Assembly: GCF_019218285.1 (NCBI RefSeq)
Contig: NZ_JAHUZG010000006.1
Location: forward strand, 1-64,000
DNA: 64,000 nt
Direction: 5' to 3'
Source of the DNA: Antarctobacter sediminis
Lineage (GTDB): Bacteria > Pseudomonadota > Alphaproteobacteria > Rhodobacterales > Rhodobacteraceae
Both the position numbers and the translations under genes were made by a program. Under the pieces are notes generated by a model. That model saw only the letters and a program-made list of their open reading frames with translations, was not told the DNA's origin and searched no databases. This document shows positions 30,304-36,612 of this stretch, in pieces (position 1 is the stretch's first letter; every line of letters begins with the position of its first letter).

Positions 30304-33300
30304 TCAGCCGATCTCGGCCAGACGGGCCAGCGCTTCTTTCAGCTTGGCCTCTTCGCCTTCGCGGGCGGCAAGGTTTTCCTTGGCCTCCTCGACCACCTCG
30401 GCGGGGGCGCTTTCGGCGAACTTGGGATTGTTCAGGCGACCGCGCAGGCCGCCGATTTCCTTGGCCAGTTTGCCCAGCGTCTTTTCAAGCCGGGCCTTTT
30501 CCTCACCCACGTCGATGATGTCAGCCAGCGGCAGGCCAAAGGTGGCCTGGCCCACGGGGACGGTGACGCAGCCCTTGGGGAAGTCTTCGACCGTGGTCAG
30601 GCCCTCGATCCGCGCCAGCTTGAGGATCAGCGCCTGATTGCGGTCCCAGGCGGCCTGTTCCTCGGGCGTGATGCCCTTGACCAGCATCGGCACATACAGA
30701 CCGGCCGGAACGTGCATCTGTGACCGGGCCGAACGCACGCCTTCGATCAGCGAGATGACCCAGGACATTTCCGTATCCGCCGAAGGATCGGCCAGATCGG
30801 CGGCGGCATAGGTCGGCCAATCGGTGTGGACCAGCATTTCCGACCGCGCGCCCAGCGTGTCCCAGAGCTCTTCGGTGATGAAGGGCATGATCGGGTGCAG
30901 CATGATCAGGCATTGGTCCAGCACCCATGCCATTGTGGCGCGGGTTTCATTGACCACCTGACCGTCCTCGGAGCCGAACAGCGGTTTGGAGAATTCCACG
31001 TACCAATCGCAGACCTTGCCCCAGACAAAGGCATAAAGCGCGTTTGCCGCGTCGTTGAACCGGTATTCGGTCAGCGCGGCATCAACGGTTTCCCGCACGC
31101 GGGCGGTTTCGCCGATGATCCAGCGGTTGACGGTCTGTTCGGCCTTGGGGGCAAAGCCGGGGTCCAGCACCATTTCATGCGCGTCGAAGACATTGTTCAT
31201 CTCGGCAAAGCGGCAGGCGTTCCACAGCTTGGTGCCAAAGTTGCGATATCCGGCGATACGGTCCACCGACAGTTTCAGCACGCCCCCGATGGAGGCCATC
31301 GAAGCATTGGTGAAGCGCAGCGCATCGGCACCGTATTCATCGACGATTTCCAGCGGGTCGATGACGTTGCCGGTGGTCTTGGACATCTTCTTGCCCTTCT
31401 CGTCGCGGACGAGCTGGTGCAGATAGACCGTGTGGAAGGGTTTTTCCCCCACGACAGCAAGCTGCATCATGATCATCCGGGCCACCCAGAAGAACAGGAT
31501 GTCAAAGCCGGTGATCAGCACCGAGGTCGGGAAGAAACGCTTCATCTCGTCGGTGTCGGCAGGCCAGCCCAGCGTGCCGATGGGCCAGAGGCCCGAGCTG
31601 AACCATGTGTCCAGCACATCGGATTCACGCCATGTCGGATAGACCAGTTTGGTCGGATCCTGCGTGGCCTCGTACTGTGCCAGCCCTTCGGCGAAGCGCT
31701 GAACGGCTGTGGCGCGGTCCGCGACCTCGATCACGCGGGCGTGGTTCAGCGGCGTGGGAAGGCCCGAGAGCACGTCTTCGAACTGCGATTTGACGGCATC
31801 GAAGTCATGCGCGGCGTGGTGGTGTTCCTCGCCGATCAAGAGGCGCTGGTCGTCCAGCAATTCGCGCATCTCGACAAGGTCGAGCGCGCCGTCCTGTTCC
31901 TGATCGTATTGCTTGCCACGCTTGGCCGAAAGGTCCAGCCCGTACCAGACGGGGATCTGGTGACCCCACCACAGCTGGCGCGAGATGCACCAGGGCTCGA
32001 TGTTTTCAAGCCAGTGGTAATAGGTCTTTTCGCCGCTTTCCGGCATGATCTTGATGTCGCCATTGCGCACGGCGTCCAGCGCGGGGCCGACGACCTTTTC
32101 GGCATCGACGAACCACTGGTCGGTCAGCATCGGTTCGATGACCACCTTGGAGCGGTCCCCGAAAGGCTGCATGATCGGCTTGGCCTCGACCAGCGGGACC
32201 TCGGTCACGGGCGGTTCTTCCTCGCCCTTCTTGAGTTTTTTCTTCGGACCAAGGCGCGGGTCATCCGAGGTGGTCATGACGGCCAGCCCCTCGGCGGTGA
32301 TTTCGGCCACCACCTTTTCACGCGCCTCGAAACGGTCCAGCCCGCGCAGATGGTCGGGGACGAGGTTGATGCTGTCGGCCTCGGCCTCGGTCAGGGTGCG
32401 GTCGCCTTCGGCCACCTGCATGGCGATTTCGGCAGCCTCGGCATAGGCATTGCCATCGGTGCGCATATGGCCGCGCATATCCATCAGGCGGTACATCGGA
32501 ATGCCGCCGCGCTTGGCCACCTGGTAGTCGTTGAAGTCATGCGCGCCGGTGATCTTGACCGCGCCCGAGCCGAAGGTCGGATCGGGGTATTCATCGGTGA
32601 TGATCGGGATCAGGCGGCGATGTTCCTTCGGGCCGACGGGGATCTCGCAAAGCTTGCCGACGATCGAGGCATAGCGTTCGTCCTTGGGGTGGACGGCCAC
32701 GGCGCCGTCACCCAGCATTGTTTCGGGGCGCGTGGTGGCGATCGAGATATAGTCGCGCGTTTCGCGCAGGGTGACGTTCCCGTCCTCGTCCTTTTCCACG
32801 TATTCATAGGTGGCACCACCCGCCAGCGGGTACTTGAAGTGCCACATGTGGCCGGCAACCTCGATGTTCTCGACTTCGAGGTCGGAAATCGCGGTTTCGA
32901 AATGCGGGTCCCAGTTGACCAGCCGCTTGCCGCGGTAGATCAGACCCTTTTCGTACATGTCGACAAAGACCTTGATGACCGCGTCATGGAAGTTGGGCGA
33001 GTTTTCGTGGCCCGTGCGCGGGTCGCCCGGCGCGCCCGCCATGGTAAAGGCGTTGCGGTCCCAGTCGCAGGAACAACCCAGCCGCTGAAGCTGGTTGACG
33101 ATGGTGCCGCCGTACTGGCCTTTCCATTCCCAGACCTTGTCGAGAAACTCCTGCCGCGTCAGGTCTGTCCGGCGCAGGTTGCTTTCGGCCTTGAGCTTTT
33201 TCTCGACCTGTAGCTGGGTCGCGATGCCCGCATGGTCCTGACCGGGTTGCCAGAGCGTGTCGAACCCGCGCATCCGGTGCCAGCGGATCAGGATGTCCTG

Positions 33301-33483
33301 CAACGTGTTGTTGAAGGCATGACCCACGTGCAGCGCGCCCGTCACGTTGGGCGGTGGGATCATGATGGTAAAGCTTTCGTCGCGGCTTTTGTTGGCGCCG
33401 GCGCGGAAGGCACCCGTCTTGAGCCATTTCTCGGTCAGGCGGGGTTCGGCCTCGGCGGCGTTGAAGCTTTTTTCCAGGGGCAT
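30304..33483 (-). CDS. valS: Valyl-tRNA synthetase
   Basis: 1059 residues, class I synthetase. [16 protein letters not shown] carries the HIGH motif near residue 48 and [15 protein letters not shown] the KMSKS motif; the CP1 editing insertion lies between ([17 protein letters not shown]). The C-terminal about 70 residues form the coiled-coil arm that contacts tRNA ([18 protein letters not shown]). It charges tRNA-Val with valine in the cytoplasm. Longer than the E. coli enzyme through insertions around residues 390-420 and 510-600. Single-gene unit, no T-box seen. Confidence 0.95.
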
Positions 33484-33746: not shown

Positions 33747-34343
33747 TCACCGGAAATCTGGGTATGGAACGCGAAGATCAACGTCGGTAAGAAACTTCAT
33801 GTAGCCGCGCACAGCATCTCTAAACTCAGTTACGTTGCCCAGCTCACGATCCTTGTAAGCGTGAATCGCGTTTCGACGGTTTTGCACAAGTTGAAACATT
33901 ACTAGATGTGCCTCTGCGAAGAGATTTTTGTGAATGCTGTATCTACGCAGGACCTCGAGTGTTAGCCCGTCAGGCTCCTTGTGGGTATTCTTCTTGTAGT
34001 CGTAAGCATTCGCCTTCTTGAGCGCTTCAGTGTCCGTCTGAAAATCCGAATAGTAGACTGAAAAGAAGAGCTTCAGAGTACCTTCAAGTAACGCACCCAG
34101 ATTAGCCCAAGCCAAGATCAATTCCCCGTCGGTCATTGAGTTTCGATCGATCCAAAAATAGAGCGTTTTTGAAAGTGAAACCTGCCAGTCTAAGCGTGAT
34201 TTGGAGAGCAATTTGGCCGCATCTTCGGGCGCCCAGCCATGAGCGGAGGCCCAAAAAGCGGATAGTTTAGCATTTAGTGATATAATCCTGTCTACTACTT
34301 CAGCAATATTTTCAGACAACGCTTCGGCATCAACATTTCCCAT
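33747..34343 (-). CDS. HEPN-like hypothetical protein in low-GC DNA
   Basis: 198 residues, helical, with no signal peptide. Near the C-terminus NRRNAIHAYKDRE gives R156-x4-H161, the form of the catalytic motif in HEPN ribonuclease domains; nothing else identifies it. Start 34343 is chosen because GGAGGT lies eight bases upstream; a GTG at 34394 is the alternative. The gene is much richer in A and T than its neighbours and so probably acquired. It lies just past the terminator of the CUCCUCCC hairpin array on the same strand. HEPN proteins often act as toxins or defence RNases; here this is only a suggestion. Confidence 0.5.
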   Translation of the reverse strand: MGNVDAEALSENIAEVVDRIISLNAKLSAFWASAHGWAPEDAAKLLSKSRLDWQVSLSKTLYFWIDRNSMTDGELILAWANLGALLEGTLKLFFSVYYSDFQTDTEALKKANAYDYKKNTHKEPDGLTLEVLRRYSIHKNLFAEAHLVMFQLVQNRRNAIHAYKDRELGNVTEFRDAVRGYMKFLTDVDLRVPYPDFR

Positions 34344-34516
34344 CTTGCGATGACCTCCATAGCAACCGCGTAGTACCTGTAAATCACGCTTCACTCCTCA
34401 ATGCAGCCATTCAATCGCCGCGCAGCATCGGTGCGTTTGGGCTCGAACCAGACCTCTGCGCGGCGCCTGTTCGAAACGCGGAAGCGCACCAACACCCTGT
34501 GCGGATACCCCCAAAG

Positions 34517-34548
34517 AAAAAAGCCCGCGATGACGGACATCGCGGGCT
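34517..34548 (-). terminator. Terminator of the hairpin-array transcript
   Basis: Perfect 11-bp stem AGCCCGCGATG/CATCGCGGGCT with a five-base loop. On the minus strand it is followed by TTTTTT (34522-34517). It sits just past the last CUCCUCCUCCC hairpin, showing that the array is read from the minus strand, downstream of the DUF1127 gene. Confidence 0.9.
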
Positions 34549-34559
34549 AAGTCACGAAA

Positions 34560-34580
34560 CCCCAGGGAGGAGGAGAGGGG
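34560..34580 (-). ncRNA. CcsR-like terminal half unit
   Basis: Single hairpin CCCC/GGGG with a CUCCUCCUCCC loop. The second hairpin of the unit is replaced by the intrinsic terminator at 34522-34548, so this half unit and terminator may form the 3' end RNA. Confidence 0.65.
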
Positions 34581-34600
34581 CCTCGAAACCGAATTCTGGT

Positions 34601-34666
34601 GCGGCGGTGCCAGGGAGGAGGAGAGGCACCGCCGCTTATGCAAGACCCCAGGGAGGAGGAGAGGGG
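34601..34666 (-). ncRNA. CcsR-like unit 5
   Basis: Hairpin a (34646-34666) CCCC/GGGG; hairpin b (34601-34635) GCGGCGGTGCC/GGCACCGCCGC. Both loops hold CUCCUCCUCCC. Repeats unit 3 at a distance of 215 bases. Confidence 0.7.
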
Positions 34667-34707
34667 CCCGACATCTGGTTGAGGCCATCGGGGCCCCGGA
34701 ATTTGGT

Positions 34708-34773
34708 GCGGCGACACCAGGGAGGAGGAGAGGTGCCGCCGCTTATGTGAGACCCCAGGGAGGAGGAGAGGGG
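34708..34773 (-). ncRNA. CcsR-like unit 4
   Basis: Hairpin a (34753-34773) has a CCCC/GGGG stem; hairpin b (34708-34742) has GCGGCGACACC/GGTGCCGCCGC as in unit 2. Both loops hold CUCCUCCUCCC. Confidence 0.7.
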
Positions 34774-34815
34774 CCCGACATCTGGTTGGGGCCATCGGGG
34801 CCCCGGAATTCTGGT

Positions 34816-34880
34816 GCGGCGGTGCCAGGGAGGAGGAGAGGCACCGCCGCTTATGCAAGACCCCAGGGAGGAGGAGAGGG
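34816..34880 (-). ncRNA. CcsR-like unit 3
   Basis: Hairpin a (34861-34880) has a CCCC/GGGG stem; hairpin b (34816-34850) has a perfect 11-bp stem GCGGCGGTGCC/GGCACCGCCGC. Both loops hold CUCCUCCUCCC. The sequence is identical to unit 5 over both hairpins. Confidence 0.7.
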
Positions 34881-34922
34881 GCCCGACATTTCGATGAGGC
34901 CACCTTGGCCCCGGAATTTGGT

Positions 34923-34992
34923 GCGGCGACACCAGGGAGGAGGAGAGGTGCCGCCGCTCTGTCTGCAGGCCGATTTGGGAGGAGAGGCCCGC
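34923..34992 (-). ncRNA. CcsR-like unit 2
   Basis: Hairpin a (34965-34992) has a weak GGCC/GGCC stem and the short CUCCUCCC core. Hairpin b (34923-34957) has GCGGCGACACC against GGTGCCGCCGC with one mismatch and the long CUCCUCCUCCC core. The hairpins are about ten bases apart. Confidence 0.65.
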
Positions 34993-35024
34993 GGATACAA
35001 GGGGTCATCGACCCCGGAATTTGG

Positions 35025-35096
35025 GACGCCGGCTCCAAGGGAGGAGAGAGAAGCCGGCGTCAGACCAGACGGGACTGGGAGGAGAAGCGTCCCGCC
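35025..35096 (-). ncRNA. CcsR-like unit 1 (divergent)
   Basis: First unit after the DUF1127 stop, eight bases away. Hairpin a: CGGGAC/GTCCCG around the CUCCUCCC core (35068-35096). Hairpin b: GACGCCGGCT/AGCCGGCGTC (35025-35061). Both loops have the short 8-base core, unlike the later units. Confidence 0.6.
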
Positions 35097-35103
35097 TGAA
35101 AAC

Positions 35104-35322
35104 TCAGTTCTCGTTCGCGGCCTGCCATGCGATGCGAGAGATCTCGCTGCGGGCCAGGCCAAGGTCGGCCAGATCGCGGTTGCTCAGAGCCGCCAGCTCT
35201 GCGTAGGTCTGCTTGTAGACCTTGCGGCGGGCGTGGCGTGCCTGGAGCATCTCGACAAAGCCGGCAAAACGTGCGCCGAAACCGCTGTGGGCTTTGGAAG
35301 AAATCGCCGTTGCATGTGCCAT
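35104..35322 (-). CDS. DUF1127 small protein (CcaF1-like)
   Basis: 72 residues. The C-terminal DUF1127 block is visible: YAELAALSNRDLADLGLARSEISRIAWQAA, preceded by a basic helix with RHARRKVYKQ. Small Arg-rich DUF1127 proteins such as CcaF1 of Rhodobacter bind RNA and affect small-RNA processing. Its stop codon is eight bases before the first CUCCUCCC hairpin and no terminator lies between, so gene and hairpins should share one transcript. It diverges from the mrp gene; the promoter in the 225-base gap could not be assigned to a sigma factor by eye. Confidence 0.85.
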   Translation of the reverse strand: MAHATAISSKAHSGFGARFAGFVEMLQARHARRKVYKQTYAELAALSNRDLADLGLARSEISRIAWQAANEN

Positions 35323-35547
35323 TGTTCAGTGCCTCAGTAAAAGCTGTGTTCGTTTGGTTGCGCTAAAGATGGTCGAAATGCTGCGGGTGCACAATGGCCG
35401 GAGAGGCAATGCCGCTATGCAGAAAGTGCATGGGGAATTTGTTCAATTCTTGGGGGTTACGCCCGATCTTTGGGCAATCGCGCGACCGTGGGTTGCGCTA
35501 ACGCGAGGTCAGCGCCACTGATGGGGCGCGCGTCAGAAGGAAGAGGC

Positions 35548-36612
35548 ATGTCAGATAAAACAAACGTGATCGAGGCGGCGCTGGAGAGAGTCGAACTGCC
35601 CGACGGTGGAAACCTGATTTCCAGAGATATGATTCGAGCTTTGCGGGTCGACGAGGGTGTCGTGCGCTTTGTGATCGAGGCACCCAGCGCCGAACTGGCC
35701 CGCCAGATGGAGCCGTTGCGCCAGATGGCGCAACGCGCGGTCGAGGCGGTGCCCGGTGTCACCTCGGCGAGCGTGGTGCTGAGCGCCCCGACGGCCGCCA
35801 AGGCGCCGCCGCAGTTGAAAATGGGGGGGCACCCGAAACCGCAGGAGGGCGTGATGAAGCCCGCAGGCGTCAAGACGATCCTTGCCGTGGGATCGGGAAA
35901 GGGCGGCGTGGGCAAATCGACCGTATCCGCCAACCTTGCCGTGGCGCTGGCGCGGGCCGGAAAATCGGTGGGGCTGCTGGATGCGGATATTCATGGCCCC
36001 TCGCAGCCGCGCATGTTCGGCTTGACGGACAGACCCGCCAGCCCGGACGGCAAGACGATCATCCCGCTCACGGCGCATGGCGTCACGGTGATGTCGATCG
36101 GGTCGATGCTGGCCGAGGACAAGGCGGTGGTCTGGCGCGGTCCGATGTTGATGGGGGCCTTGCAGCAGATGCTGATGCAGGTCGACTGGGGCACCAAGGA
36201 CGTGTTGATCGTCGATCTGCCGCCGGGCACGGGCGATGTGCAACTGTCTCTGGCCCAGAAATCCGAAGTGGCGGGTGCGATCGTGGTCTCGACCCCGCAG
36301 GACGTGGCGCTGATCGACGCGCGCAAGGCGCTGGACGCTTTTGCGACACTGAAAGTGCCGGTGCTGGGGCTGATCGAGAACATGGCGGTTTTCACCTGCC
36401 CGCATTGCGGCAAGGACAGCCATATCTTCGGGCACGGCGGCGTGGTGTCCGAGGCGGAGAAGATCGGGGTGCCCTTGCTGGCACAGTTGCCGATCGACCT
36501 TGATACCCGGCTGGGCGGTGACGGGGGCATGCCGGTGGCTCTGGGCGACAGCGCCATGGCCACGGCCTATGCTCAGTTGGCGGATCGATTGATCAAAGGC
36601 GGGATCGTCTGA
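35548..36612 (+). CDS. apbC: Mrp/ApbC-type Fe-S cluster carrier ATPase
   Basis: 354 residues. An N-terminal MIP18/DUF59 domain (about 1-90) is joined by a Pro/Gly linker to the P-loop ATPase: GSGKGGVGKSTVSANLA is the deviant Walker A, DADIHGPSQPRMFG and DLPPGTGDVQLSLAQ follow. FTCPHCGKDSHIFG contributes the CxxC that holds the bridging Fe-S cluster in the dimer. It delivers clusters to apo-proteins in the cytoplasm. Start 35548 follows GGAAGAGG; the upstream in-frame ATG at 35470 is not supported. Confidence 0.9.
   Translation: MSDKTNVIEAALERVELPDGGNLISRDMIRALRVDEGVVRFVIEAPSAELARQMEPLRQMAQRAVEAVPGVTSASVVLSAPTAAKAPPQLKMGGHPKPQEGVMKPAGVKTILAVGSGKGGVGKSTVSANLAVALARAGKSVGLLDADIHGPSQPRMFGLTDRPASPDGKTIIPLTAHGVTVMSIGSMLAEDKAVVWRGPMLMGALQQMLMQVDWGTKDVLIVDLPPGTGDVQLSLAQKSEVAGAIVVSTPQDVALIDARKALDAFATLKVPVLGLIENMAVFTCPHCGKDSHIFGHGGVVSEAEKIGVPLLAQLPIDLDTRLGGDGGMPVALGDSAMATAYAQLADRLIKGGIV

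Follow-up and report, generated by a model that had tools for sequence, protein, structure and literature searches.

A DUF1127 gene and eleven anti-Shine-Dalgarno RNA hairpins form a probable CIN1-type locus in Antarctobacter sediminis

The minus strand of the window (the whole stretch of Antarctobacter sediminis DNA analysed here, 64,000 nt) carries a short DUF1127 gene followed by eleven RNA hairpins that share one anti-Shine-Dalgarno loop motif, and by its sequence this locus is a clear relative of ccaF1-CcsR1-4, the CIN1 locus of Rhodobacter sphaeroides. CIN1 is described as a small DUF1127 gene (ccaF1), four tandem CcsR RNAs, and a terminator, with an RpoHI/RpoHII promoter in front, and its CcsR RNAs as processed by RNase E together with the DUF1127 homologue CcaF1 (PMC10253847). 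We put a probability of roughly 80% on the locus here being a stress locus of this type, in which one transcript is processed into two-hairpin anti-Shine-Dalgarno RNAs and the array grows block by block. The gene for the DUF1127 RNA-binding protein and, 3' of it, the eleven hairpins would share a single minus-strand transcript, whose start may depend on an RpoH-type sigma factor. With probable help from the DUF1127 protein, RNase E would cut at AAUU linkers and release five two-hairpin RNAs of ~80-107 nt and a one-hairpin RNA retaining the terminator. The exposed loops would base-pair with some of the mRNAs for uptake and carbon metabolism, at purine-rich Shine-Dalgarno sites (GGGAGGAG), and block translation, for example, of the pyruvate dehydrogenase (PDH) E1-alpha gene. 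Arrays would grow and shrink mostly by tandem duplication of multi-hairpin blocks, with stems turning over around a fixed loop and neighbouring stems differing, plausibly so that each hairpin folds on itself. Loci of the DUF1127-CcsR kind were known already; added here are a survey of them, the pattern of block growth and unlike neighbours, predicted cut sites, a conserved promoter-like element, and a candidate target.

The order on the minus strand is DUF1127 gene (35104-35322), eleven hairpins (35099-34550), and intrinsic terminator (Table 1), and the neighbouring genes named by Pfam encode a valyl-tRNA synthetase (30304-33483, minus) and an Mrp/ApbC-type ATPase (35470-36612, plus). The first loop starts 22 nt past the last sense codon of the DUF1127 gene, and a terminator-like site was looked for on the minus strand between the gene and hairpin 1 without success. 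The initial annotation, made from the letters of the window, had placed the locus at 34517-35322, with no terminator between gene and array and a minus-strand terminator at the array end; the terminator scan bears out both statements and the coordinates are correct, and the bounds should reach further upstream, to the promoter-like element at ~35394-35358. One further minus-strand terminator match, a weak one with a 5-bp stem and the tail CTTCTCTCTC, falls within the array at 35068-35054, and the sole plus-strand terminator-like match (35415-35433) is upstream of the DUF1127 gene. On the same strand as the array, ~120 nt 3' of the terminator, there is a 215-aa open frame without a Pfam match (window 33747-34394). 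The genome holds two further DUF1127-type matches, one over the Pfam cut-off (C2:774397-774504) and one under it (C1:362009-362119); downstream of both, a CUCCUCCC / anti-Shine-Dalgarno array was looked for and is absent.

Table 1. Features of the DUF1127-hairpin locus, in window positions and in minus-strand order; hairpins are from the predicted fold.
Feature	Positions	Strand	Remarks
Promoter-like element, partly RpoHI/RpoHII-like	35358-35394	minus	predicted start ~35358; TTG 35394-35392 (-36..-34), C-14, A-12 (35370), T-9 (35367)
DUF1127 protein, CcaF1-like	35104-35322	minus	72 aa; Pfam PF06568, 43.8 bits, E 2e-11
Hairpin 1	35065-35099	minus	unit 1, loop CUCCUCCC
Hairpin 2	35025-35061	minus	unit 1, loop CUCCUCCC
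AAAUU linker, candidate RNase E site 1	35018-35022	minus	CcsR1 match 35103-35021 ends here
Hairpin 3	34962-34995	minus	unit 2, loop CUCCUCCC
Hairpin 4	34923-34957	minus	unit 2, type B1 stem, loop CUCCUCCUCCC
AAAUU linker, candidate RNase E site 2	34915-34919	minus	CcsR1 match 34998-34918 ends here
Hairpin 5	34853-34889	minus	unit 3, type A stem, loop CUCCUCCUCCC
Hairpin 6	34816-34850	minus	unit 3, type B2 stem
GAAUU linker, candidate RNase E site 3	34807-34811	minus	CcsR1 match 34889-34811 ends here
Hairpin 7	34745-34781	minus	unit 4, type A stem
Hairpin 8	34708-34742	minus	unit 4, type B1 stem
AAAUU linker, candidate RNase E site 4	34700-34704	minus	CcsR1 match 34782-34703 ends here
Hairpin 9	34638-34674	minus	unit 5, type A stem
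Hairpin 10	34601-34635	minus	unit 5, type B2 stem
GAAUU linker, candidate RNase E site 5	34592-34596	minus	CcsR1 match 34675-34596 ends here
Hairpin 11	34550-34590	minus	half unit before terminator
Intrinsic terminator	34516-34548	minus	11-bp stem (34548-34522) + T tail

The motif CTCCTCCC occurs 12 times in the window, where 2.44 copies are expected over 64 kb, and 11 of these copies lie within 34565-35084 on the minus strand. When the 592-nt stretch is folded in silico, all 11 fall in hairpin loops, all of the hairpins are local, and the mean unpaired probability is 0.90-1.00 per loop against an average of 0.28 for the remaining RNA. The loop is CUCCUCCC in hairpins 1-3 and CUCCUCCUCCC in the other eight; CCUCCUCCC is present in 8 of the 11 loops, the first three carrying UCUCCUCCC, with 8 of 9 letters alike. 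Loop-to-loop spacing is 38/62/39/69/38/70/38/69/38/48 nt, and this alternation of 38-39 and 62-70 nt, with 48 nt before the last loop, implies five two-hairpin units and one half unit, as the initial annotation had read the array and as loop count, spacing, and predicted fold agree in showing. Tandem Repeats Finder (TRF) detects a 107-nt repeat at 34591-34958, in 3.4 copies. The inter-unit linkers (~34895-34914, 34786-34806) also contain a short G+C-rich palindrome that lacks the loop motif (GGGGYC or GGGGCC plus its complement); of these palindromes, two are predicted to pair locally and two with each other.

At Rfam gathering thresholds, the window yields only one tRNA and nothing at the array. 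Below these thresholds, CcsR1 (RF02791) matches each of the five units at full length on the minus strand (55.4, 55.1, 54.0, 47.1, and 29.8 bits; E-values 4.5e-5 to 1.2e-12), with a weak sixth match at the terminator end (20.6 bits); the best score falls short of the gathering score of 65.3 bits, and the array is not a gathering-level member of RF02791. Matches to ar14 (RF02344; 57.2, 51.2, and 46.9 bits) likewise do not reach gathering (58.8), nor do those to other families, of which the best are anti-hemB (30.8 bits at the terminator end, against a gathering score of 49.5; E 4.9e-5) and suhB (28.4 bits, gathering 41). A covariance search with the CcsR model, which the initial annotation had proposed as a check, thus gives the full-length minus-strand matches to five units, but all of them below gathering. 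Genome-wide, with 150 of 3219 first-look candidates scored, the five array units are the only CcsR1 matches at E<=0.001, and 1 of 14 control genomes gives a sub-threshold match.

The marks of a CIN1-type locus are found together here: a short DUF1127 gene (PF06568, E 2e-11) next to CcsR-like RNAs, adjacent hairpins with CCUCCUCCC loops (8 of 11, the first three near-identical), and stems that are variable but paired, as covariation among 93 distinct hairpins attests. Like ccaF1-CcsR1-4 as published, the locus joins a DUF1127 gene, tandem CcsR-type RNAs, and an end terminator, and all five units match CcsR1 at full length. It differs in having five and a half units rather than the four RNAs described there, in later units that are near-identical with alternating B1/B2 stems, in loops that are mostly CUCCUCCUCCC, and in scoring below Rfam gathering; it also belongs to another species. 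RS0680a of R. sphaeroides is reported to have two such stem loops (PMC3927594), and the ar14/NfeR1 and SmelA075/SmelA099 RNAs to have three or four hairpins with CCUCCUCCC loops, with three redundant motifs of NfeR1 silencing ntrB (PMC10746234, PMC3927594). The ar14/NfeR1/cuckoo RNAs of Rhizobiales (RF02344), so far as these accounts describe them, share with our array the adjacent hairpins, the CCUCCUCCC anti-Shine-Dalgarno loops throughout, and the diverging stems; they have three or four hairpins, whereas here the hairpins are arrayed behind a DUF1127 gene, and NfeR1 is described as a trans-sRNA under its own promoter, unlike the DUF1127-linked array (PMC10746234).

Strand and stems were compared across 52 arrays with at least five loops each: 36 arrays from family genomes, among them the present one, and 16 named loci chosen by hand. 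Duplicates (L037, L041, L050, L051), arrays of fewer than five loops, and 64 of the 80 named loci were left out of the array counts, and matches in Clostridia, Streptomyces, and similar taxa, some with at least five loops and none with DUF1127, were excluded when the named loci were picked. At least 6 of 10 possible Watson-Crick pairs form in the stems of 460 of 469 loops, compared with 645 of 1407 for shuffled flanks. Among the non-Watson-Crick cells of 383 distinct stems, read on the DUF1127 strand, 241 are G-U, 73 are A-C, and 333 belong to the eight other types together; stems were chosen by Watson-Crick count, which has no bias for G-U over A-C. Since A-C stands at the level of any mismatch and G-U is about three times as frequent per type, the RNA is the DUF1127 (minus) strand. 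In the 93 distinct hairpins whose 13-nt loops are identical, stem pairs 2, 3, and 4 are standard in 98, 91, and 88% of cases (71, 48, and 48% when shuffled) and covary with up to six pair types; pair 1 barely varies and carries little information (91% against 89% shuffled), and pairs 7-9 are looser (57-70% standard). The stems therefore covary around a fixed loop across the family. Rfam matches, covariation, strand test, and relatives together uphold the identification as a CcsR/cuckoo-type array behind a DUF1127 gene, with the RNA on the minus strand, with which the initial annotation began.

Upstream of the DUF1127 gene, CATTGTGCA and GCAGCATTT are conserved in all seven upstream sequences, one of which is from another genus. 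A sigma-70 consensus site was searched for in this region and none was found. RpoHI/RpoHII promoters are reported to feature TTG at -36..-34, A-12, and T-9, with C-37 for RpoHI and C-14 + T-13 for RpoHII (PMC3441632). With the register placed by eye and no matrix score, TTG, A-12, and T-9 are present in 7/7 upstream regions and C-14 in 6/7, and the RpoHI-typical C-37 and RpoHII-typical T-13 in 0/7. Further upstream, at window 35415-35433, lies a TGCA-N-TGCA dyad (CATGCACTTTCTGCATAG, minus strand), a possible regulator site that is largely conserved in the seven aligned relatives (one from another genus).

The RNase E consensus is RN/WUU. The enzyme of R. sphaeroides is reported to favour AU-rich sites (PMC6238624). 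Each of the five inter-unit linkers contains one AAUU, with no other copy in the 592-nt stretch, and we infer that RNase E would process the transcript at these linkers, the DUF1127 protein probably helping. The looser RNWUU has extra matches at the DUF1127 stop, in both arms of hairpin 11, and in the terminator, and none in the within-unit linkers. Across the 52 arrays, in which our own genus is over-represented, the 122 distinct long linkers include 35 with AAUU, where 8.4 would be expected; among the 269 short ones the count is 9, against an expected 6.2. Such sites are not universal: a sister-genus array (L015) has none in the linkers inspected.

The DUF1127 gene and array are present together in 6 of 6 genomes of the genus. 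Unbroken arrays number 11 hairpins here and 13, 13, 13, and 17 in four congeners; in the fifth (L014), the array is interrupted by 305 N, with 5 + 3 loops visible. The description of our array as expanded holds relative to R. sphaeroides, for which the published four CcsR RNAs of the two-stem-loop type amount to about eight hairpins against 11, but fails within the genus, where it is the smallest of five unbroken arrays. A three-loop pattern is found in 149 of 394 family genomes and a reversed control pattern in 14; the former figure is a minimum, since the pattern overlooks arrays whose gaps are wide, such as that of G010, with 10 loops and no match. A class-wide draw finds the pattern in 3 of 192 genomes, namely our own and two resembling plain coding repeats, and the control in 2, and so gives no signal outside the family, though Rhizobiales have such RNAs. 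Among the matches listed in a scan of named genomes (at least 120 stretches and at least 80 loci), Rhizobiales have 3-6 loops and Rhodobacterales up to 12, in Paracoccus kondratievae behind a DUF1127 gene; those in Clostridia, Streptomyces, and the like, again among the matches listed and without DUF1127, are probably chance or coding repeats.

Family loci were also collected by loop pattern alone: 30 were fetched of the 149 genomes matched, and 27 remained once our own genus and duplicates had been removed. These hold 3-26 hairpins (median 7), with a DUF1127 gene no more than 700 nt upstream in 24, in 18 of these at 19-35 nt; at L040 (10 loops), L043, and L048 (3 each), none was found within 700 nt. 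Fetched by protein instead, 17 of 28 DUF1127 loci have an array of at least three. The array studied here is thus ordinary in kind, and its size is neither extreme nor unusual for the genus. The longest array, L042 (genome G186), has 26 loops over ~1.2 kb behind a DUF1127 gene and consists of near-identical three-hairpin blocks of ~140 nt each; L040 (genome G113) also has its 10 loops in three-hairpin blocks, without a recognisable DUF1127 gene upstream.

Direct neighbours in an array almost never have similar stems: only 1 of 417 neighbouring pairs is at least 80% alike, compared with 18.2 when hairpin order is shuffled (sd 3.6, minimum 6, 200 shuffles). At lags 2, 3, and 4, the same similarity is reached by 30 of 365, 25 of 313, and 32 of 261 pairs, and twenty arrays have a like-stem pair at lag 2-4, with one (L042) having such a pair at lag 1. 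This difference between neighbours and lags 2-4 indicates that arrays grow mostly by multi-hairpin blocks, which comprise for the most part two hairpins (this genus), three (L042, L064, L040), or four (L022, L108, L015). In the genus, the strong B stem alternates between B1 and B2; of the three stem positions that tell these forms apart, two are pairs altered on both sides and the third is G-U in one form and G-C in the other. This alternation creates a larger repeat of ~215 nt. Even-lag units are more alike than odd-lag units in each of the five congeneric arrays, four of which have one even-lag pair only; in L012, even-lag units are 96-100% identical and, exceptionally, two B2 stems succeed each other at the array end.

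Folding models offer a possible reason for this order. In short models, two like B hairpins placed side by side reach a local pairing of 0.09, against 0.998 for B1 beside B2, and local pairing of the first stem is 0.455 in B1-linker-A-B1 and 1.0 in B1-linker-A-B2; in the full-length transcript, turning all B stems into B1 or B2 has almost no effect (0.966 / 0.967, native 0.970). For 19 of 20 arrays, local folding is better in the native order than on average over 12 shuffled orders (means 0.879 against 0.837, Wilcoxon p 1.3e-4; L132 goes the opposite way), but in 15 of the 20 the native order is equalled or surpassed by one or more of these shuffles. Five of these arrays come from one genus, L042, the longest array, was left out, a relocated hairpin was also separated from its own linkers, and equilibrium folding takes no account of co-transcriptional folding. 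Tandem block duplication alone could account for the order pattern without selection, and a folding reason is possible. Our tentative proposal, which we consider rather doubtful as a whole, is a folding grammar: growth would be confined nearly entirely to blocks of 2-4 hairpins because like neighbours would cross-pair, B1 and B2 would serve as incompatible stem barcodes, and block number would tune the dose of one loop. Such a neighbour-stem rule was not met in the literature at title and abstract level, a scope that does not include the primary cuckoo RNA, CcaF1, and CcsR papers, and we do not claim its absence from print.

Candidate targets come from the pattern GGGAGGAG-N3-11-ATG, which matches the genome 49 times, at 48 sites; reversed, it matches 6 times. 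A control Shine-Dalgarno, GAAAGGAG, before ATG gives 26 against 5 reversed, and since it is over-represented too, as any Shine-Dalgarno would be, the excess of GGGAGGAG before ATG does not show targeting. Of the 49 matches, 30 were fetched, and 25 of these have frames longer than 100 aa, all with a Pfam family: transport proteins (DctP, DctQ, TctC, TctB, NMT1-like, SBP_bac_1), pyruvate dehydrogenase E1, three AMP-binding enzymes, acyl-CoA dehydrogenase, enoyl-CoA hydratase, a thioesterase, a dihydroxy-acid dehydratase, and a SelR (methionine sulfoxide reductase) domain are among the candidates. The PDH E1-alpha gene was located in 29 of 31 genomes, and for each the start with the longest match was taken. 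Its ribosome site pairs with 8-9 loop bases in all six genus genomes, with 8-10 in three family genomes (G007, G010, G015), with 4-7 in the other 10 family genomes, and with 4-6 in 10 class genomes. In the family as a whole, pairing and array size do not go together (G011, with 15 hairpins, has a 6-nt match), which makes this match a lead and no proof. Prediction of ribosome-site targets, as the initial annotation had suggested, therefore yields a conserved candidate (PDH E1-alpha, 6/6 in the genus) and a 49-to-6 excess, the latter being no sign of targeting.

Three other explanations of the array deserve weighing. CsrB/RsmZ RNAs carry many hairpins with GGA loops and titrate CsrA, and they resemble our array in that many hairpins share one repeated loop motif. 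Read on the plus strand, the locus would be an RNA of this sort, an array of GGGAGGAGGAG loops titrating CsrA, and every loop would indeed carry GGGAGGAG, with GGA motifs in hairpin loops. We reject this reading, to which we attach next to no credence: the array lies on the opposite strand and without CsrA (PF02599), which was not found in the genome by a search that finds it in 3 of 14 control genomes, and the G-U to A-C ratio of 241 to 73 favours the minus strand. The 11-bp-stem terminator is also on the minus strand, with the only plus-strand candidate (35415-35433) lying upstream of the DUF1127 gene, CcsR1 and ar14 both match the minus strand, and plus-strand Rfam matches are weak and far below gathering (Acido-1 at 21.4 bits, DUF1874 at 19.5 and 18.2 bits).

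On the minus strand, the array could instead act uncut, as a long multi-site antisense or sponge RNA whose precursor binds many ribosome sites or free 30S subunits, cutting being mere disposal. In its favour, the full-length fold leaves all 11 loops accessible, separate RNAs cut from near-identical later units would gain little in specificity, and two of the five linker sites (sites 3 and 5, unpaired 0.21 and 0.03) are mostly paired in that fold, yet AAUU sits in the unit linkers, at the ends of the CcsR1 matches, and the CcsR RNAs of R. sphaeroides are described as processed by RNase E and CcaF1 (PMC10253847), which leaves the sponge improbable. Still less probable, by a clear step, is that the array is a selfish or mutational repeat, a satellite-like tandem duplication within a 3' UTR that does little more than affect transcript stability. 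Copy number does vary among close species (11, 13, 13, 13, 17) and units are homogenised in some arrays (L012), but the loop is fixed and the stems covary across the family, the promoter-like region and DUF1127 linkage are conserved, and the DUF1127 gene, present in all six genus genomes, has an array in each.

The AAUU linkers pinpoint where RNase E and the DUF1127 protein are predicted to cut. Differences in size by whole units, 11-17 hairpins in one genus and 3-26 among the family loci, form a natural series for the effect of sRNA copy number. The pattern of unlike neighbours, in turn, offers a simple rule, open to testing, for stacking repeated RNA hairpins so that they do not misfold.
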